Positions 1 to 59,072 of a stretch of DNA of 64,000 bases are shown here, piece by piece. Position numbers and translations under genes: made by a program. Source of the stretch: Candidatus Anstonellales archaeon (lineage in GTDB: Archaea; Micrarchaeota; Micrarchaeia; Anstonellales; CG1-02-47-40); NCBI GenBank assembly GCA_038869735.1, contig JAWCQO010000002.1, positions 1 to 64,000 on the forward strand, in the 5' to 3' direction. Under the pieces are notes generated by a model. That model made no database searches. It was given only the letters and a program-made list of their open reading frames with translations, and was not told the origin of the DNA. How positions within the stretch are numbered: position 1 is the stretch's first letter; each line of letters opens with the position of its first letter.

Positions 1-102
1 AACAAGAGCAAGAGCAAATGTTTGGGCAACCTCAATGCTGACCGGAGCCCTTATAGGAATAGTAATTGTGGTTGTTGCTCCAGCAATACTTAACACAATG
101 TA
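1..102 (+). repeat. Direct repeat copy A (identical to 360-461)
   Basis: These 102 bases match 360-461 base for base, including all third codon positions. Identity stops abruptly at 103, where the C-terminal codons differ. It lies inside tandem pilin genes and looks like recent gene conversion or duplication. Confidence 0.95.
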
Positions 103-127
103 TGGCGGCAGCAGTATAGCATGTTAG
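1..127 (+). CDS. VirB2/TrbC-like pilin, C-terminal fragment (cut by window edge)
   Basis: The reading frame enters the window open (codons from base 2) and ends at the TAG at 125-127. The visible 41 residues are the second half of the pilin-like protein encoded just downstream: a charged TRARAN loop, a second hydrophobic helix rich in Ile, Val and Ala, and a terminal cysteine as the last residue. The first 102 bases are identical to 360-461, so this is a tandem paralogue that has recently recombined with its neighbour. The next gene starts 14 bases after the stop, so they are probably co-transcribed. The start, signal peptide and first helix lie outside the window. Assignment to the VirB2/TrbC type is by architecture and pattern, not by a database match. 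Confidence 0.8.
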   Translation, partial: TRARANVWATSMLTGALIGIVIVVVAPAILNTMYGGSSIAC

Positions 128-141
128 GAGTGTGATACGAC

Positions 142-486
142 ATGAATTTAAGAGGAATAACTGATAAAAAGTTCCAAATACTCGCCTTTGCGCTTCTGCT
201 TCTTGTTGGAGTGCTATACTCCCAAGCAGGGACACTAGCAATAAGGACAGGAATCTCTCAGCTTTGTTCCTTTATAAAAAATCTCATCCCAGTAATCTCA
301 ATGCTCATGCTTGTCGGTGCAGGAGCAGTCTACGCAGGCGGTCAGCTTATGGGAGCAGAAACAAGAGCAAGAGCAAATGTTTGGGCAACCTCAATGCTGA
401 CCGGAGCCCTTATAGGAATAGTAATTGTGGTTGTTGCTCCAGCAATACTTAACACAATGTACGCAGGAATCAGTGGTGCTTGTTAA
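142..486 (+). CDS. VirB2/TrbC-like pilin (114 aa)
   Basis: This small exported membrane protein probably forms the subunit of a surface filament. Residues 1-30 form a signal peptide (basic MNLRGITDKK, hydrophobic core, SQA before a likely type I cleavage site). The mature part of about 84 residues has a cysteine at the start of helix 1 (QLCSFI), a VYAGGQLMGAE turn, a basic TRARANVW segment, helix 2, and cysteine as the very last residue. A signal peptide, two hydrophobic helices around a short polar loop and a mature length near 80 match the VirB2/TrbC pilin plan; the family name is inferred. A GGAG Shine-Dalgarno motif precedes the ATG. Paralogues lie on both sides and at 58569-59072. Confidence 0.75.
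   Translation: MNLRGITDKKFQILAFALLLLVGVLYSQAGTLAIRTGISQLCSFIKNLIPVISMLMLVGAGAVYAGGQLMGAETRARANVWATSMLTGALIGIVIVVVAPAILNTMYAGISGAC
324..461 (+). repeat. Direct repeat copy B (360-461 = 1-102; 324-407 = 815-898)
   Basis: Bases 360-461 equal 1-102 exactly, and bases 324-407 equal 815-898 exactly. The shared part encodes the VYAGGQLMGAE turn and the TRARANVWATSMLTGA segment. Sequence outside these tracts has diverged, giving a mosaic expected from repeated gene conversion between tandem paralogues. Confidence 0.95.
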
Positions 487-490
487 GTTA

Positions 491-545
491 GGAAGGATTG
501 CCTTCTAGGTAGGATGGGTGCGCCCACCTTTAATTTTTCTTTTTT
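491..545 (+). terminator. Tandem hairpins plus T-rich tract after the second pilin gene
   Basis: A 6-bp hairpin (491-506, GGAAGG / CCTTCT around an ATTG loop) is followed by a short GC hairpin (TGGG / CCCA around 516-525) and then a T-rich tract at 530-547. The order fits transcription termination after the pilin pair, or a processing and stability element at the mRNA end. No experimental support is available. Confidence 0.5.
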
Positions 546-629
546 GCTAAAGCAGCGGCAGCGGACCGGCTATTTCCTACTTTATTCTTTTTTAAACTCT
601 TCTACACTAAAAACTATCTTTAGATATCT

Positions 630-980
630 ATGGAAACAGAGCGCTACAAACTATCTGAACCAAGGGCCAGGCTAGTCTTAACTATACTGTTATTTATCTC
701 TTCGCTGTTGTTTGCTCAACAGCAAGACCAATTAAGGTCAGCCCTGAGTGATCTCTGCGTCTTTATAAGAGACTTAGTACCACTGACAGCCATGCTCATG
801 ATAACCTCGGCAGCAGCAGTCTACGCAGGCGGTCAGCTTATGGGAGCAGAAACAAGAGCAAGAGCAAATGTTTGGGCAACCTCAATGCTGACCGGAGCAC
901 TAGTCGGCATTTTAATAGTTATTATTGTCCCAGCAGTACTTGGCATAATGCTTGGTCTTAATGGCCCTATAACATGCTAA
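630..980 (+). CDS. VirB2/TrbC-like pilin (116 aa)
   Basis: This is the third tandem pilin-like paralogue. A basic N-terminus is followed by a hydrophobic signal sequence ending LLFA before Gln-rich residues, so cleavage near residue 29 leaves about 87 residues. The mature protein keeps the cysteine opening helix 1 (DLCVFI), the VYAGGQLMGAE turn, TRARANVW, helix 2 and a final cysteine (GPITC). Its N-terminus and C-terminus differ clearly from the upstream copy, but the middle 84 bases (815-898) are identical to it. A TTTTTAAAC stretch at about 588-597 could be its own TATA box, about 36 bp upstream of the ATG. The glycosyltransferase gene starts 10 bases after its stop, suggesting co-transcription. 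Confidence 0.75.
   Translation: METERYKLSEPRARLVLTILLFISSLLFAQQQDQLRSALSDLCVFIRDLVPLTAMLMITSAAAVYAGGQLMGAETRARANVWATSMLTGALVGILIVIIVPAVLGIMLGLNGPITC
815..898 (+). repeat. Direct repeat copy C (identical to 324-407)
   Basis: These 84 bases match 324-407 without a mismatch, while flanking sequence differs on both sides. The segment encodes the most conserved part of the pilin (turn plus start of the second helix). Confidence 0.95.
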
Positions 981-990
981 ACCAGGTGGG

Positions 991-1677
991 TTGTTGAAAA
1001 AACTAACAGTTATAATCCCAACATTAAACGAGGAGAAAAACATAAAACCACTAATAAAGGAAATATTGAGCATCTACCCAAATACTAATATTATGGTTGC
1101 AGATGACGGTTCAACAGACAACACAAAAAACGAGGTTCTATCTTTCAGATCAAAAAACATTACTTTCCTTGACAGGAGCAAAAAGAAGATTCATGGCCTT
1201 ACAGCGTCAGTTATAGACGCAATTCTCCACACAAAAACCCCTTATTTTATAGTCATGGACGCAGACTTTCAGCACCCCCCAAGCACAATCCCCGATATTG
1301 CTTTCTGTCTTGAATCAGGCGCTGATCTTACAATAGCATATAGAGTCGGAAAGCGAAATTCACTCTCTTTTCCGCGCCGTGCGATATCAACGATTGCTCA
1401 CCAAATTGCATCACTGCGTCTTACACTAGCAGGAAAACCAACTGTGCCAGATCTTACAAGCGGTTTCTTTGGGATGCAAACCACCCTCGCTCGTTCTATA
1501 ATCCTACGCTCAAAATTCCAACTTGAAGGTTATAAAGTCTTATTTGAATTTATAAAATATGCCCCCAAGGGCACGGAAATAGGTCTAGTTCCATATAAGA
1601 GATTCCTAAAGAGGGCATCCGGCAGATCCAAGTTTGGACCAAGACACATCCTATACTTCTTAAGGTCCCTTATCTGA
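991..1677 (+). CDS. Family 2 glycosyltransferase, dolichol-phosphate sugar synthase type (228 aa)
   Basis: This enzyme probably transfers a sugar from a nucleotide-sugar to a polyprenyl phosphate or a membrane acceptor at the cytoplasmic face. The GT-A fold signatures are plain: VIIPTLNEEKNI near the N-terminus, DDGSTDNT near residue 40 and the DADFQHPP metal-binding motif near residue 90, as in DPM1-like enzymes. There is no C-terminal membrane domain, so it is the single-domain form. The start is a TTG at 991 directly after an AGGTGG Shine-Dalgarno motif, with a second TTG one codon later. It follows the pilin genes closely and precedes a GT39-like integral membrane glycosyltransferase, suggesting a role in decorating surface proteins. 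Confidence 0.85.
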   Translation: MLKKLTVIIPTLNEEKNIKPLIKEILSIYPNTNIMVADDGSTDNTKNEVLSFRSKNITFLDRSKKKIHGLTASVIDAILHTKTPYFIVMDADFQHPPSTIPDIAFCLESGADLTIAYRVGKRNSLSFPRRAISTIAHQIASLRLTLAGKPTVPDLTSGFFGMQTTLARSIILRSKFQLEGYKVLFEFIKYAPKGTEIGLVPYKRFLKRASGRSKFGPRHILYFLRSLI

Positions 1678-1688
1678 GCTGTTTTCAG

Positions 1689-3155
1689 ATGCTAGAACCA
1701 CATTTCCTTATCAAAATCATCCGTTCACATTATATCATTGCGCTTTACCTCTTATTTACTCTTCTATGGTTGCCATTCTTTACACTTCCTTTTTCACATG
1801 ATGAGTCCGTATTCATCTTCATCGGAAGGGGGATTACGCAAGGGCAAGTCCTCTACAAAGATCTTTTTGATAATAAAGGACCCTTCCTTTATCTCGTTTA
1901 TGCAGCGTTGTGGGGTCTCTTTGGGTTAAGTGAGGTTTATTACCGTGTCGTCTTCTATTTTTTTGTCATTATCAGCGCGATACTTCTTAGAAAAATATCT
2001 AAAGAGCTTTTTCCATCCCTAAATCCACGCATTACAGAAATTTCATATCTTCTTTTAATGTCAATTCCAACATCGATCCCGTTTGCGATATCTGAAACTC
2101 TCGTAAATCTCCTAATAATCAGCGCAGCTACATTGATTTTAGAATACAAAAAAAGACAATCTTCTTTGTATCTAGTAGCCTCAGGCTTCCTCTTTTCTCT
2201 ATGCATACTTACAAACTTCCTAAGTGTTTTTTCACTACCATTTGTTTTATGGCTTCTTCTTGAGGTCTCAAAGGCCAATCAGAAAGAAAAAAGCCTTTAT
2301 GGAACCTCGCCTCACACACTAACCATCTTTTTTCTATCAGCCATTATCCCCCATCTAATCTTCTCATTCTATCTTCTAACTTCACAAAGCCTGGCTGCCT
2401 TTATGGAGGTTATCTCTGTATTTGCACCTGCATTCTACATCAAGTTTGCGAATTTACCTTACCTGCTTATTTTTCTAACTTTTTTTCTTCCATTTATAAG
2501 ACAAAATGAAAGAAATGCTGTCGCATGCGCCTTTTCTCTAACCCTATCCTATATCCCATCTCTTAATGTCACTCCAACGTTGACATCCCACTACAGTATA
2601 TTCTATTTTCCATTTTTGAGCCTGCTTATCCCTCTTACTTACAAGAACTTCAAAATACTGCATCCAACAATTCAGGTCTTAGTAATTATGTACCTACTAA
2701 ACATATATCTCAACCCGTTCATAGACAACAACTTAAAAGTCTCATATCTCTATGATAACGACGCATACAGTAAAGAGCGAACCTTGGCTTACAAGGAGCT
2801 CTACTCAAACTTCAGCAAAAATATTTCGGGGAAAGATATAGCTGTGTTCTCATACGATATTTCGCCATATCTTTACTTGAATTCTACTCCAAAAATAAGG
2901 TATCCTTACTTTATCTATTTATTCAGCTACACAAAAATAAACTACACGATAGAGGCAGAATATTCCAAGAGGATGAGCGAATCTCCATTTGAGTATATCA
3001 TCATAGGTCAAGACTTATACGGTGTCTCAGAGGTACCGCAATCTGTAATGGAGCATTTAAAAAACAACTATACTCTTCTTTACTCTAAAGAATTCTCTCC
3101 AGAAAGATTAAGTCATCTTGGAAGCAGCAAGCTTCTTCTCTACAAGCGCAATTAA
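1689..3155 (+). CDS. GT39-like integral membrane glycosyltransferase (488 aa)
   Basis: This multi-spanning protein has about ten hydrophobic segments followed by a soluble C-terminal part of roughly 120 residues. The first extracytoplasmic loop contains PFSHDESVF and, further on, DNKGPFLYL. That loop, with its acidic Asp-Glu pair, is typical of the GT39/ArnT/PMT superfamily, which transfers sugars from polyprenyl-phosphate donors on the outer face of the membrane. The ATG at 1689 follows the upstream glycosyltransferase stop by 11 bases. Together with that polyprenyl-phosphate-type enzyme it could supply and use a lipid-linked donor. The acceptor is unknown; the adjacent pilins are one candidate. 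It faces a convergent gene of the same superfamily. Confidence 0.75.
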   Translation: MLEPHFLIKIIRSHYIIALYLLFTLLWLPFFTLPFSHDESVFIFIGRGITQGQVLYKDLFDNKGPFLYLVYAALWGLFGLSEVYYRVVFYFFVIISAILLRKISKELFPSLNPRITEISYLLLMSIPTSIPFAISETLVNLLIISAATLILEYKKRQSSLYLVASGFLFSLCILTNFLSVFSLPFVLWLLLEVSKANQKEKSLYGTSPHTLTIFFLSAIIPHLIFSFYLLTSQSLAAFMEVISVFAPAFYIKFANLPYLLIFLTFFLPFIRQNERNAVACAFSLTLSYIPSLNVTPTLTSHYSIFYFPFLSLLIPLTYKNFKILHPTIQVLVIMYLLNIYLNPFIDNNLKVSYLYDNDAYSKERTLAYKELYSNFSKNISGKDIAVFSYDISPYLYLNSTPKIRYPYFIYLFSYTKINYTIEAEYSKRMSESPFEYIIIGQDLYGVSEVPQSVMEHLKNNYTLLYSKEFSPERLSHLGSSKLLLYKRN

Positions 3156-3184
3156 GCTTAATTCCTCAACCAATCAGCCAGCTT

Positions 3185-4708
3185 CTACTTCTTCTTATAA
3201 ATCCAGACAACCCACGAACTGCCATAAACGCTTTCATTTATGTAGTTTTCGCCAAGAAATTTCCTAAACTGTGCAAAGGAAGGAAATTCCTTTTCCAAAT
3301 CCTCCATATCTAAGTTTCGGGTATGGTCAAAACTTTCATTAACTAAAACAACAATATCCGGCTTGGCCTTCATAACGGGCCCAAAAACTTCTTTCGAATA
3401 CCAACTATCTATCAGAGTTGGTCCAGATGGATAGTACGGAGATGGAATTTGAATGTAATAGTAAAGTGCTCGCACCAGCGGAGATTTATTCAGCATTAAA
3501 TAATACTCTGCCCCAGTTGGAAAAACAAAAAATTTCGATTCCTCCTTCATCACCCATCGTATGCGCTCAACAATCGCGCCTATCCCTGAACAGCCAGATG
3601 TAGATAAGGCAAGTTTTTTACCCACATAATCACTATAAGAAGACCAAGCAAGAATAACTGAAAAGGCAACTGCAAAAATCATTATTGCTAATAGGATAAG
3701 CAGGACCCCTTTTAATCTCCTTATACCTCTAAAAGAATCACTCACAATTCCAATTAAAAAAGAAAAAGGAAGGATAAGGCTATACATAACCAGAGGATAT
3801 ATCCAGACAGAATAAAGTTTTAAGAGAATAATAAATAAAACACTAAGAAAAAACAGGAATGATAACGCACCAAAACGACTTTTTATTAGATTTTTGTTAG
3901 CCAACCCTATAATCATTGGAAAAAATAAAACAAAACAAAACCCTATACTAATTATCACATCCTGTATATGCCTCTCAGATAATAGCATGCGGAAATAAGC
4001 GTCAAAACCAAGGTCATGCCCTGCCGTTAGATACCCTGTCCACTTAGTTCCAAATAAAAAGAAGCCTCCAAAAACCACAGCTGCAAATGCCATCCCCAAC
4101 CCAAAGAAAAAGATAAACTCCCTTTTTCTTCTCTCGTGCCAAAGCAGATAAAGAACCGGGAGAGAAAGTCCAAAAGCAGCCGTTGGTTTTGTAAACGAAG
4201 ATGCTATCAAAAAAAATCCGGTTAAAGCAAGATTTCTCTTAAAATTTGTCTTCTGCAAAGAGACAAGAAAATAAAATGCAAACGCCCATAATAGCGATGC
4301 AATAAACTCTGCCCTGAAAAATATGTTCATCGAAGCATACGAATAAACAAGATAAATAATGGCTGGAATGTACTTTGCAAATCCGCTAAGATATTTTTTG
4401 CAAGTTAAAAATACGATAATTGCAATAAGAAAATTGATTGCTACTGAAAACATACGGGTGCACAAAATACCAGAGCCGCAGGTTTTAACAATCGGAACAA
4501 GTGCAAGATAAAGAACAGGTAGTTTATGTGCAAGAATCGTATCGTAAAGAACCTTTCCATTAGATATCTCTCTTGCAGTTAATAGGTGTTCCGCTTCGTC
4601 GCTTTCAAATCCAAAACAATAAGTTCTACTATCAAACAACGGCAAAACCGATAAAACTAAAAGAAACAACAGATACGCTATAAGAATTCTTAACTCACCA
4701 TCAAGCAT
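3185..4708 (-). CDS. GT39-like integral membrane glycosyltransferase (507 aa)
   Basis: This is a multi-pass membrane protein of the same superfamily as its neighbours. A first transmembrane helix is followed by a loop with GFESDEAEHL and then a hydrophobic core of about ten helices; the C-terminal 100 residues are soluble. The frame is open back to 4747, which would overlap the upstream gene. I chose the ATG at 4708 because GGTG lies just before it and it leaves a 10-base gap. Conservation of the acidic loop suggests catalytic competence. The protein is only distantly similar to the 1689-3155 product, so these are probably separate specificities and not a recent duplication. Confidence 0.7.
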   Translation of the reverse strand: MLDGELRILIAYLLFLLVLSVLPLFDSRTYCFGFESDEAEHLLTAREISNGKVLYDTILAHKLPVLYLALVPIVKTCGSGILCTRMFSVAINFLIAIIVFLTCKKYLSGFAKYIPAIIYLVYSYASMNIFFRAEFIASLLWAFAFYFLVSLQKTNFKRNLALTGFFLIASSFTKPTAAFGLSLPVLYLLWHERRKREFIFFFGLGMAFAAVVFGGFFLFGTKWTGYLTAGHDLGFDAYFRMLLSERHIQDVIISIGFCFVLFFPMIIGLANKNLIKSRFGALSFLFFLSVLFIILLKLYSVWIYPLVMYSLILPFSFLIGIVSDSFRGIRRLKGVLLILLAIMIFAVAFSVILAWSSYSDYVGKKLALSTSGCSGIGAIVERIRWVMKEESKFFVFPTGAEYYLMLNKSPLVRALYYYIQIPSPYYPSGPTLIDSWYSKEVFGPVMKAKPDIVVLVNESFDHTRNLDMEDLEKEFPSFAQFRKFLGENYINESVYGSSWVVWIYKKK

Positions 4709-4718
4709 ACACCAATCC

Positions 4719-6224
4719 CTATTTTGCGCTTTTCTTTTTGTACACACTTAGATTCTGACCAAACCTGTTGACCAGCTCATATCCTTCAACTTCGATCCAA
4801 TCAGGTTTTTCTGCAGTCAGAACCCAGTCGAATTCAGAATATCCACAAGGTATTTTCATATTCCTTTCATCCCAAAAAGCCCTATATACATGAAAATTGT
4901 ATGTATAATTTGTCTTATTATCAAAGCCATATATGTTGCTTTTCCATATATACGGCTCTTCACGGTAACTACTGTTGTAAATGTACACTATACAAGGTTT
5001 AGGTAATCCATCTGCCATCATTTTATAAGCAACAACAGTAGGCACATAGTTTCCAATTACCAATACCTTTTCTTTTCCAGCAAGAAATAAACCCGCTTCT
5101 CTTTCAGCAGCGTATTCATCTACAAATCCACTTGTAAGCACCATCAGAGAGGATATCATCAAAACGGCCATTGAAGTTAGAATAATCAATAACGAAAACC
5201 TATCAAACTTTCCACCAAGCCTATTAAAAATAAGAGAAGAAGAAAAAGCGCAAACGGCTGGCATCAGGGGCAGAGGGTACCAGAAATACCCAACACCAAC
5301 AAAAAAAACCAGAGGAAGTAGCGACATCCATGTCGCTAGCCATATTCTCCTTTTCCAAAACTTACACAATCCAATAATAGATGAAACAACAAGAACGTTT
5401 GAATTTATAATAAATTCCCCCAGTCCACCTACAAACCTCTTGAAAATCTCAAAATCTATCCCACCAGTGCTCCACCACGATCCAAAAATCTTGCTCGGGA
5501 TGTTATACAAATACTCGCCAATTATGGCTTCTCTCTCTTCAAAAAGAGCATCATAAACAAATAAAGAAAGCGGAAGAAAAAAAAGCGAAATAAGAAACTC
5601 AAACTTACGCAACTCTCCCTTCCGCTCAAAGGCATATGCAACGGCAACTATGGGAATAATAAAGGCAACAACAGTTTTTGTCCAATATGCAAATGCAGAT
5701 AAAATCCCCCCCAAAATATAGAATCGCGGATCTGACTTACCATGAAAATAACAGGCAAGTGATGAGAGCACAAAAAACAACAAAACCGAATCTACAAGCG
5801 CACTCGTATCGGCATAAAGAGAAGAAAAAGAAAGCATGAACATCAACGATGTGCATAGTGCAAAATCCGCTGAAAATTCCCTTCTAAACATCAGATAAAT
5901 GAGCACAACAGAACACGCTCCAAAAAATAGAGACGACAAGCGATACGGCAAGCCAAGGTCAATTTCAACATCAAGCAGCCCAATAATCGCCTTTGAAGCG
6001 ACTACAAAGGGTGCAGACAACAGAAAAGGAACTACTGGTCTCCAAGCTACTTCCTGTCCAAAATATGTTGGTATGATCCTTGGCTTTTCCAAGAATTCAT
6101 CCACCATTCTTGCATAAAGTGCCTCATCCTTAATAAGCGGCCTGTTATACGCAACAAAAGTTGCACGGGATAAAAGAAAAACAATCAAAAGCAAAGCAAC
6201 ATGTTTTTTTAGTTCAGATACCAT
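4719..6224 (-). CDS. GT39-like integral membrane glycosyltransferase (501 aa)
   Basis: This is a polytopic membrane protein with the GT39/ArnT hallmark in its first external loop (LIKDEALYARM, then EVAWRPVVPF). About ten hydrophobic segments follow, and then a soluble C-terminal domain of roughly 100 residues. The frame is open to 6245, but the ATG at 6224 lies 26 bp downstream of the TATA box at 6246-6254, so a leaderless start there is preferred. The next gene on this strand begins 10 bases beyond its stop and is probably co-transcribed. It completes a four-gene surface glycosylation group beside the pilins. Substrates cannot be deduced. Confidence 0.72.
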   Translation of the reverse strand: MVSELKKHVALLLIVFLLSRATFVAYNRPLIKDEALYARMVDEFLEKPRIIPTYFGQEVAWRPVVPFLLSAPFVVASKAIIGLLDVEIDLGLPYRLSSLFFGACSVVLIYLMFRREFSADFALCTSLMFMLSFSSLYADTSALVDSVLLFFVLSSLACYFHGKSDPRFYILGGILSAFAYWTKTVVAFIIPIVAVAYAFERKGELRKFEFLISLFFLPLSLFVYDALFEEREAIIGEYLYNIPSKIFGSWWSTGGIDFEIFKRFVGGLGEFIINSNVLVVSSIIGLCKFWKRRIWLATWMSLLPLVFFVGVGYFWYPLPLMPAVCAFSSSLIFNRLGGKFDRFSLLIILTSMAVLMISSLMVLTSGFVDEYAAEREAGLFLAGKEKVLVIGNYVPTVVAYKMMADGLPKPCIVYIYNSSYREEPYIWKSNIYGFDNKTNYTYNFHVYRAFWDERNMKIPCGYSEFDWVLTAEKPDWIEVEGYELVNRFGQNLSVYKKKSAK

Positions 6225-6245
6225 AAGGTAAAATTGAAGCATCAA

Positions 6246-6280: not shown

Positions 6281-8617
6281 ATGGTAAATATACGCCGCGA
6301 TGGAGATGTGCTAATATTTGACTGCGTAAGTATTCCCTACGAACTATTCTCTCCCAGCTTCATAAATGACATGTTCCATACTCTTTCAACACTTGATTTT
6401 GAACCAAAGCAACTGAGATTTGAGGAAGAGTTAGTTGTTGAGTTTTCTCCACAACAAACGAAGATACTGATTGATTATGTGAAAATAATCCGACAAGTGG
6501 ACTCACTGCGTTTAAAGAAGGAGATTTATGGCCATCCACAGGACGACCGCGTAGCAGCAAGAAGGAAATTACTTTCCGATTTTTATGAGCAAATGTTCAT
6601 GAACCCAGTTCTTGCTCTCCAGACTCTTGATGACTACAAAGAGCCGCAGCCCACAAGGTCTCTTTTCGTTGAAGGGTATAGAACGTTTTTTGCTTGGCTA
6701 AATGGAATTATAAAGGCAATGCGGTCCAATAAATTTTATCTACTTTGTAGGGAGGCTGGCGATGCACAGAGTGTAATTCTATCCTTTGGCGGACTCAGAA
6801 GTTTGCGATATGTCCCACTCCTACAACTATCCGTCCCTCCATACGCAAAGCCACTACAAATAGAAGAGGCAAGATACGAAATAGGGGAAGGTTTAACCGT
6901 ACAGATATATGAAACAGGGAGAGAAGCCCATCTTTATGTTATTGAAAACCCTCTCATAGAAAACCTAAAACCAGAACTAACTGAACTGATGAAATCAAAA
7001 ATAGCGGAGGAGCTGGCAGCGATAAAGGACCAACAGATCGTTTGGGATACCATCTATGAAACTAAATCACGCGAATATTCAGATTACTTTCTTTTAACTG
7101 CATCCTCAAAGTCAATAGAACTCTCAAGCAAGCAAGCATACGCAATGGGACGTGAGGCAGCCTCATGGGTCGTTGGACTGGGCTCTCCAATTGAGAACAT
7201 GTCTCTGGACTGCGAAAATATAACAGATATTTATATAGACTCTCAGAACTCCCCAATTTATATAGAGCACGCAAAGTTTGGCCTGTGCCACACTCTGTGG
7301 AGATACAATACTGAAATGCTCGAATCAGCATTTAGAAACATTGTCTCGCTTACCAAGGAAAGCAGAAAATTCGATTCCAGCAACCCAGTTTTAGATGTGG
7401 TCGTGCGAAGACTTAATCTCAGATGCCATCTCCAACGTCCCCCAGCCACATTCGGCGACCTCCAAGCTGCATTCAGGCTCTCAAAACCAACTCCGTTTAC
7501 ATACCCTCAATACTTCTACTATAAGTCATTTACTCCATTCTTTACGGGCTACGATCACGTGATGGTTTCTCTTGGTTGCTCAGAAGCAGTGCTCGGAATA
7601 AAAGCTGTAGGAAAAACCGCCTTTACTGCTTCAAAAATACTTGCCATAGGCACAAAAAAAAGAATACTCCCTATCCAAGACATAGAAGAAATACCAGTGA
7701 GAGCTTACAGAAAGCGTGGCTTTCATATAGGTGCCATGCGTGTTCAATCCTCAGACAAAGAGGGATTGACTCTACAGCCTAAATCAGCCGAGCTTGACTT
7801 AGTAACGATGGCAAACGCAAGCCTGAGGATGGGGGAGGCGTGTTTAATAATAAATGAAGTGCGCTCGCGCCTTGCACTTCAAGGAGTAATCAACCTTCTA
7901 AACACGCAACCCGGAGTCTTCCTCCTCTATAACCTCCATGCAAGGTCACTATCAGAGATTCAGGATCGTCTTGAGATGGTATTTGGAATCCCTGGCGCAT
8001 CCATGTTTTCAACAGATCGCTATTCATTCCTAAAAAAGCTTCGCTTTGGTAGAAAAGACCGGTTTTATCGTGTGCTTGACAACAGCTTCGAGACAGACGC
8101 GGAACAAAAAACTTTCGTGAAAGTCTTTACGTTCATTCAGGGACCAAGTATAGATTCATCTCAGCTTAAGTGTCTCTTTCTCAAAAACAAAGAGGCCTCA
8201 TCGCCTTCGCTGCGAGGACTTGATCTTGGAAAAATGGAAAAAAATCTGGATATCGAATTCATCCCTCCGGTTATGAAACGAGTTGCGCAAGAGCACATCC
8301 TGCAACCGGAAGACTACATCATGCTCTCATTCCTGTACGCCAAAATTTACTCAGATATTTACGATAAATCTTTAGAACTAAAAAACAAGAACATAACTGA
8401 GCTTGACTTTGTACTGGAGTGTGTTTCAGCTCTCAACATTCTGCTAAAAGAAAAAGAGCGTGAAAATGGAAGCGTCGATTTTGCCGACTTACAGCCCGAA
8501 TGGGAAAGACAGTTTCATGGCCTTTTAAGCGACTTTCTTTTAGGAAAGCTAAACGCAAAAGGCAAGCTAACCTCAAAAGAATTAAACGAAGAGGAAGAGG
8601 GAGAAGTTGATAATTAA
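6281..8617 (+). CDS. Divergent secretion ATPase, GspE/VirB11 superfamily (778 aa)
   Basis: This is probably the hexameric motor of a secretion or pilus system. The first 270 residues are unassigned. The VirB11/GspE N-terminal region follows (SWVVGLGSPIENMSLD, ITDIYIDSQNSPIYIEH). The C-terminal ATPase domain has a Walker A of the form GIKAVGKT, an Asp-box equivalent (RILPIQDIEEIPVR), a Walker B region where the usual GEVR reads NEVR, and a His-box reduced to LHARS. The P-loop lacks the usual GPTGSGKT wording and the CxxC zinc site is not visible, so it is a divergent member. The last 120 residues are extra and acidic at the end. It is read away from the glycosyltransferases and lies 5 kb from the pilin genes. 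Confidence 0.78.
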   Translation: MVNIRRDGDVLIFDCVSIPYELFSPSFINDMFHTLSTLDFEPKQLRFEEELVVEFSPQQTKILIDYVKIIRQVDSLRLKKEIYGHPQDDRVAARRKLLSDFYEQMFMNPVLALQTLDDYKEPQPTRSLFVEGYRTFFAWLNGIIKAMRSNKFYLLCREAGDAQSVILSFGGLRSLRYVPLLQLSVPPYAKPLQIEEARYEIGEGLTVQIYETGREAHLYVIENPLIENLKPELTELMKSKIAEELAAIKDQQIVWDTIYETKSREYSDYFLLTASSKSIELSSKQAYAMGREAASWVVGLGSPIENMSLDCENITDIYIDSQNSPIYIEHAKFGLCHTLWRYNTEMLESAFRNIVSLTKESRKFDSSNPVLDVVVRRLNLRCHLQRPPATFGDLQAAFRLSKPTPFTYPQYFYYKSFTPFFTGYDHVMVSLGCSEAVLGIKAVGKTAFTASKILAIGTKKRILPIQDIEEIPVRAYRKRGFHIGAMRVQSSDKEGLTLQPKSAELDLVTMANASLRMGEACLIINEVRSRLALQGVINLLNTQPGVFLLYNLHARSLSEIQDRLEMVFGIPGASMFSTDRYSFLKKLRFGRKDRFYRVLDNSFETDAEQKTFVKVFTFIQGPSIDSSQLKCLFLKNKEASSPSLRGLDLGKMEKNLDIEFIPPVMKRVAQEHILQPEDYIMLSFLYAKIYSDIYDKSLELKNKNITELDFVLECVSALNILLKEKERENGSVDFADLQPEWERQFHGLLSDFLLGKLNAKGKLTSKELNEEEEGEVDN

Positions 8618-58568: not shown

Positions 58569-59072
58569 ATGCGTAAACTCTCTTTTTTTCTGGTCTTTTT
58601 TTTATTTCTCTTTTCTTTTCCACGGGCTCAGATTGAAAACATATCAAATGCTCTAACTGACCTATGTTCTTTTATATCCAACCTCCTTCCTACAATTTCA
58701 ATGATTATGGTGATAGGAGCAGGTTTGGTTTATGCAGGCGGCCAGCTTATGGGTGCAGAAATGCGGGCCCGCTCGTCACTGTGGTCAACATCTTTATTAA
58801 TGGGAGCTCTTATAGGAATCCTTATTTCAGTGATAGCTCCTGCAGTTCTTGAAACTATCTATGGCCAGCAGTGGAACTTATCGTGCCGTGGCGGTGCAGG
58901 AGGTGGAGGAGGCGGAGGAGGCGGAGGCCAGATGTTCTGCGGTGTCCAACCCTATGATCCAAATACCCATAGGTGCTGTTACAACAGCTTCGTTTGTCTA
59001 ATAAATCAGAGATGTTGCCCAGAAGGTTGCAGACCACAAAATGCTCAATGTCAAGGTTTAGGAATAGGTTAA
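58569..59072 (+). CDS. VirB2-like pilin with a glycine linker and Cys-rich tail (167 aa)
   Basis: A signal peptide (MRKLSFFLVFFLFLFSFPRA, then QIENIS) leads to the same two-helix pilin as at 1-980: DLCSFI, LVYAGGQLMGAEMRAR, GALIGILISVIAPAVL, and a cysteine (LSC) where the short forms end. Here the chain continues with a run of about twelve glycines and then a 40-residue domain with eight cysteines in CC and C pairs (MFCG, RCCY, VCL, RCCPEGC, AQC). Such a tail looks like a small disulfide knot displayed on a filament, possibly a tip or adhesive subunit. Its DNA is clearly diverged from the tandem copies. Confidence 0.75.
   Translation: MRKLSFFLVFFLFLFSFPRAQIENISNALTDLCSFISNLLPTISMIMVIGAGLVYAGGQLMGAEMRARSSLWSTSLLMGALIGILISVIAPAVLETIYGQQWNLSCRGGAGGGGGGGGGGQMFCGVQPYDPNTHRCCYNSFVCLINQRCCPEGCRPQNAQCQGLGIG

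Follow-up and report, generated by a model that had tools for sequence, protein, structure and literature searches.

A conserved cysteine pair in VirB2/TrbC-like pilins of Micrarchaeota suggests disulfide-stapled subunits of a Ced-like pilus

Pilins of the VirB2/TrbC superfamily differ in how the ends of the subunit are held. RP4 TrbC and R27 TrhA are cyclic, and closure of TrhA is essential for the pilus (PMC13031515). The T-pilin VirB2 of Agrobacterium, a signal-peptide-bearing hairpin, is not cyclic according to cryo-EM (PMC9905601); it has a native cysteine, C64, for which no disulfide has been described and whose replacement (C64S) leaves substrate transfer near wild type (PMC4074166). 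The original prediction for the locus described here had treated bacterial TrbC and VirB2 pilins alike as closed head to tail by a peptide bond, which is correct for TrbC, and also for TrhA, and incorrect for VirB2.

The archaeal pilins of the Ced and Ted DNA-import systems (CedA1 of Aeropyrum, TedC of Pyrobaculum) are small two-helix proteins encoded by cellular rather than mobile-element genes, and their partners are VirB4-type CedB/CedD ATPases and polytopic CedA proteins (PMC9905601, PMC11868833); the cryo-EM paper on CedA1 and TedC mentions no cysteine or disulfide (PMC9905601). Tandem arrays of 2–11 divergent T4SS pilin genes occur in the Patescibacteria, reduced-genome episymbionts, where pilins were found with PF18895, PF04956 and others and the arrays are thought to aid adaptation to different hosts; no cysteine pair has been described for them, the sole mention of cysteine being of a peptidoglycan hydrolase (PMC12102498). 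No paper on disulfide-linked VirB2-type pilins or on a T4SS pilus of Micrarchaeota was recognised among the open-access papers searched.

The pilins of the present locus are like CedA1 and TedC in being small two-helix proteins encoded by cellular genes, with ATPases and polytopic proteins of comparable kinds as candidate partners. Unlike the Ced and Ted systems, those of Micrarchaeota have many paralogues, ectodomain variants and poly-pilin fusions, and a separate CedA1-like pilin with no cysteines is encoded in the same genome. The proteins share the layout of a signal-peptide-bearing hairpin with VirB2, and superfamily and similar size with TrbC and TrhA. In contrast to the peptide bond of the latter two, the bond here, if formed, would be a disulfide linking a residue within a helix to one in the tail. 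The genes form tandem arrays like those of the Patescibacteria, here in archaea and with a cysteine pair.

Pilin genes in the window and elsewhere in the genome

The window analysed covers the opening 64 kb of contig C2, in a genome of 884 kb that is 97% complete. It had been predicted to open with tandem VirB2/TrbC-like pilin genes, with one cysteine opening helix 1 and another as the last residue of the protein. Both complete copies have this arrangement, with LCxFI at the start of helix 1 and a common VYAGGQLMGAETRARANVW loop, and the partial first copy also ends in cysteine. Two further paralogues had been missed, one within the window at 58569-59072 and one outside it at C11:4228-4569(-). 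The features of the window referred to below are as follows.

1-127 (+): VirB2/TrbC-like pilin gene truncated by the contig edge, C-terminal half; ends in a Cys codon and stop (...SIAC-stop)
142-486 (+): complete pilin gene, 114 aa; signal peptide (by eye) and 87-aa putative mature hairpin with Cys at mature residues 15 and 87
265-267 (+): codon of the N-terminal Cys (N-Cys) of the 142-486 copy, residue 42 (mature 15), in helix 1
481-483 (+): codon of the C-terminal Cys (C-Cys) of the 142-486 copy, residue 114, the last
630-980 (+): complete pilin gene, 116 aa; Cys at mature residues 14 and 87
756-758 (+): N-Cys codon of the 630-980 copy, residue 43
975-977 (+): C-Cys codon of the 630-980 copy, residue 116, the last
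6281-8617 (+): TadA/FlaI/VirB11-like ATPase, 778 aa; TIGR03819 E 6.8e-8, FlaI 5.1e-7, VirB11 2.4e-6, all far below cut-off
58569-59072 (+): fourth paralogue, 167 aa; Cys-pair pilin core, then Gly-rich linker and Cys-rich C-terminal domain
58665-58667 (+): N-Cys codon of the fourth paralogue, residue 33 (mature 13)
58884-58886 (+): C-Cys codon of the fourth paralogue, residue 106, not terminal, with 61 residues after it
58887-59069 (+): C-terminal part of the fourth paralogue (Gly-rich linker, Cys-rich domain), without a Pfam match

The probable N-terminal half of the first copy, with LCSFI, was found at the very end of contig C5 (78605-78817). The C5 piece is 90% identical, and the C5 and C2 pieces join at query residue 74. 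Copies 1 and 2 share a near-identical stretch (126 nt, 93%), and the break falls inside it; breaks within such repeats are a usual assembly failure, and the two pieces are likely one split pilin gene. Both cysteines are present in all of these copies, namely those of the array, the first taken together with its C5 half, the fourth paralogue of the window and the C11 paralogue. The same genome encodes a Cys-less, 81-aa pilin-like protein beside a polytopic membrane protein (C2:102381-103627).

Contig C11 also encodes a long protein, truncated by the contig edge, that consists of helical repeats almost identical to one another (KALSNYKVASLFAQHPDAVVQIAQATGKDA...; L011:1-1464).

Family identity, partner genes and distribution

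The identification of the window proteins as VirB2/TrbC-like pilins is supported by consistent sub-threshold Pfam matches, by ATPase operons in relatives and by a predicted hairpin. A window copy matched TrbC (PF04956) at E 9.3e-6, the best window score being 26.2 bits against a cut-off of 27.9, and scores against T4SS_pilin (PF18895) were at most 22.8 bits against 26.6, so that no window pilin reached a Pfam gathering score. At E ≤ 0.01, T4SS_pilin was matched by 35 of 49 relatives (best 2.8e-9) and TrbC by 23 of them, and none of eight relatives searched as full-length proteins exceeded the T4SS_pilin cut-off. The top match in a PDB profile search was TrwL, the VirB2 of R388, at a non-significant E of 0.085. 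The sequences have the VirB2-type layout of a signal peptide (by eye), two hydrophobic helices and a short charged loop, and AF2 with the 49 relatives predicted a two-helix hairpin (helices 2-42 and 45-79; mean pLDDT 90.7). Foldseek of this model against the PDB gave no match at E ≤ 0.001, a plain hairpin carrying little information.

Gene context in the relatives is stronger evidence for the family than the Pfam and fold searches. At three loci (L048, L055 and L111) a Cys pilin gene is the first of a one-strand operon and is followed, after a gap of ~10-15 bases, by genes for two membrane proteins of 253-271 aa and then for a CedB/VirB4-like ATPase; the layout at L043 and L175 is similar. At L043, the CedB/VirB4-like ATPase behind three Cys pilins (2665-5829) contains an intein (TIGR01445).

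In the window's own genome no ATPase gene adjoins the pilin array, and that the ATPase at 6281-8617 belongs to the same system as the window pilins is a guess. A CedB-like ATPase is encoded on C5 (E 8.8e-25) and a CedD/CedB-like one on C1 (2.3e-20), both far below equivalog cut-offs and each behind a membrane protein of the kind seen in the relatives. The genome also has two tandem arrays (C4:28139-34771 and C5:28523-38699), each of about six polytopic membrane proteins, some of those on C5 with large Cys-rich parts. These are possibly CedA/VirB6-like, a name that rests on gene context: the one match to CedA was weak (E 0.015), an AF2 model of a CedA/VirB6-like candidate (pLDDT 64.7) gave no significant Foldseek match, and Pfam, NCBIfam and PDB profiles gave nothing useful on a VirB6 assignment.

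The family was found in 205 of the 223 genomes searched in the phylum Micrarchaeota, with up to 10 matches per genome, and homologues came from Micrarchaeota, Iainarchaeum and other archaea, so that the window's genome most likely belongs to Micrarchaeota; none was found in viral contigs. Adjacent pilin genes in arrays of 2-4 are frequent. Since the paralogues differ mostly at their outward ends, they may vary the surface of a pilus. Unusual architectures include a natural fusion of 633 aa (L205:1810-3708), in which a secreted ectodomain is followed by four successive pilin units, each with its own Cys pair. In two others (L060:5851-7404 and L061:1125-2777), two no-Cys pilin units are fused to a polytopic membrane protein within an array of similar polytopic proteins.

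The latter fusions are what might be expected of a channel subunit, and together with the family scores below curated cut-offs and the lack of a Foldseek match they would fit small two-helix membrane subunits other than pilins, such as holin-like proteins or pore or channel accessories. An unrelated family of this kind had been named at the outset as a possible outcome; T4SS_pilin and TrbC were instead the top recurrent families, and no holin family was among those matched by the 49 relatives. The operons with CedB/VirB4-like ATPases and the tandem arrays of paralogues with their variable ends and ectodomains, which recall the VirB2 arrays of Patescibacteria (PMC12102498), also argue against a non-pilin identity, which we regard as scarcely probable.

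Co-conservation of the two cysteines

Among 185 distinct pilin units, both cysteines were present in 160, neither in 24, the N-Cys only in one and the C-Cys only in none (Fisher p 2.9e-29, uncorrected for kinship). That 160 units should have both positions occupied contrasts with a cysteine content of 0.27% in the family's membrane core. At the sequence level the two cysteines are therefore coupled, a strictly paired and phylum-wide feature, and no true single-Cys homologue was found; the original prediction was right on this point and understated.

The one apparent exception, L040:6346-6681, has its C-terminal Cys encoded in frame past a TGA, indicating truncation or a sequence error, and the adjoining paralogue is intact. 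L163 is cut by the edge of the locus, and in L060 and L061, which might have been taken as C-Cys-only units, the cysteine counted belongs to the fused polytopic part.

On a tree of the family the N-Cys state changes five times and the C-Cys state six, with about five joint changes; the additional C-Cys change is that of L040. Explaining the no-Cys units takes five changes on the best tree, three or more of them on strongly supported branches, and the largest no-Cys group is a CedA1-like lineage that includes the 81-aa protein of the window's genome. The tree was built from 78 columns and its forks are weak. Independent joint changes are few (three well supported); a sign test on independent pairs gave the same direction in 3/3, too few pairs for significance.

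The N-Cys lies at mature residue 13-15 and at -22 (106 units) or -25 (55 units) from a conserved Tyr (n=192 before deduplication). The two spacings differ by about one helical turn, which would place the N-Cys on about the same face of the helix. The C-Cys lies 48-68 residues past the Tyr, with widely varying tail lengths, and is terminal in only 59 of the 160 units, 13 having more than 20 residues after it. Neither position suits a general processing signal: the N-Cys is too far into the mature chain for a lipobox, and the C-Cys is too seldom terminal for a lipid or ligation tag. Some members extend up to 324 residues past the C-Cys, which argues against a head-to-tail peptide bond in those members.

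Candidate disulfide and pilus model

Co-conservation of this kind is the pattern that a disulfide predicts, and it fits a bond within or between subunits equally. Gain and loss of the cysteines only as a pair suggests that a disulfide probably staples the subunit or links neighbours. The arginines in the loop, read by the positive-inside rule, would place both chain ends outside the cell. A membrane-anchored DsbA-like protein with a CPFC site (C7:48137-48952) is encoded in the genome, as are several secreted or membrane proteins rich in cysteine; a search of the genome for VKOR homologues gave none. In the AF2 model both cysteines lie at the same, open end of the hairpin and not on opposite faces of the membrane, a placement that had been raised as a possible objection. 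In an ideal hairpin the N-Cys would be an estimated ~13-15 Å away from where helix 2 ends, a distance that the tails to the C-Cys, of 6-25 residues and never fewer than six, are long enough to span. The modelled ends of VirB2 in the T-pilus are ~34 Å apart (PMC9905601), so that the Micrarchaeota hairpin, if stapled, must differ near its ends.

It had been proposed that a disulfide between terminal cysteines would produce a pseudo-cyclic subunit comparable to the cyclic bacterial pilins. The coupling of the cysteines speaks for a bond, and its description as head-to-tail closure does not hold. Because the N-Cys is internal and protein often follows the C-Cys, the bond would not join the ends of the chain but hold the hairpin shut at its open end.

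We consider it probable that these genes belong to a Ced-like T4SS pilus of Micrarchaeota whose subunits are disulfide-stapled hairpins. The genes would encode the major and variant pilins of this reduced type IV secretion pilus, each exported by Sec and then relieved of its signal peptide. In the membrane the product would form a two-helix hairpin, its arginine-bearing loop facing the cell interior and its two chain ends exposed outside, and a disulfide between the cysteine at the start of helix 1 and that of the short tail after helix 2 would form across its open end, probably aided by the DsbA-like protein. Subunits would be pulled into the filament by the CedB/VirB4-like ATPases. The staple may substitute for the peptide closure of TrbC and TrhA, holding the ends together and stiffening the subunit.

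The main rival is a bond between subunits, in which the tail Cys of one pilin is joined to the helix-1 Cys of its neighbour and the whole filament is covalently cross-linked. The chain ends of related pili such as that of TrhA lie at the surface, where they can meet neighbours (PMC13031515), and both the short linker that is all that separates the C-Cys of one unit from the N-Cys of the next in the four-pilin fusion and the widely varying tail lengths would suit such an arrangement. However, the predicted monomer already brings its own two cysteines together at one end, and cross-linking would have to follow assembly and would hinder retraction; we consider it unlikely.

Alternatively, the cysteines could stay reduced or have some other joint function, for example in binding a metal, in a thioether linkage to a lipid or in redox sensing. 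The disulfide is so far predicted from sequence, VKOR was not found, and the near-normal transfer seen when the lone Cys64 of VirB2 is replaced by Ser (PMC4074166) illustrates that a pilin cysteine need not be bonded. Each side nevertheless has one invariant cysteine with no other metal-binding motif, exactly one cysteine follows helix 2 in 94 of 116 complete order-level homologues, gain and loss are strictly joint, and an extracytoplasmic DsbA-like protein is encoded along with other Cys-rich secreted proteins, all of which makes such a role very improbable.

The most likely meaning of the pair is thus a disulfide that staples the hairpin subunits of a Ced-like pilus at their open ends. If true, this would be a third way of holding VirB2-type pilins together, alongside peptide cyclisation and the absence of closure, and would help in asking what closure is for. 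How ultra-small DPANN archaea contact and exploit their hosts is poorly understood, and a T4SS-type pilus with a stapled subunit, encoded by most sampled Micrarchaeota genomes, would be a concrete and testable appendage. A broader picture, of disulfide-held T4SS pili across the phylum, possibly zipped between neighbours, with adhesive variants and pre-joined four-pilin chains and serving host contact or DNA uptake, is tentative and as a whole somewhat unlikely.

The Cys-rich domain at 58887-59069 is possibly an adhesive or minor-pilin domain, and the pilins of L027 and L028 have similar extensions. Immediately 3′ of the pilin array at the start of the window (991-6245) are genes for a family-2 glycosyltransferase and three PMT-like mannosyltransferases, which could have surface proteins such as the pilus as substrates.
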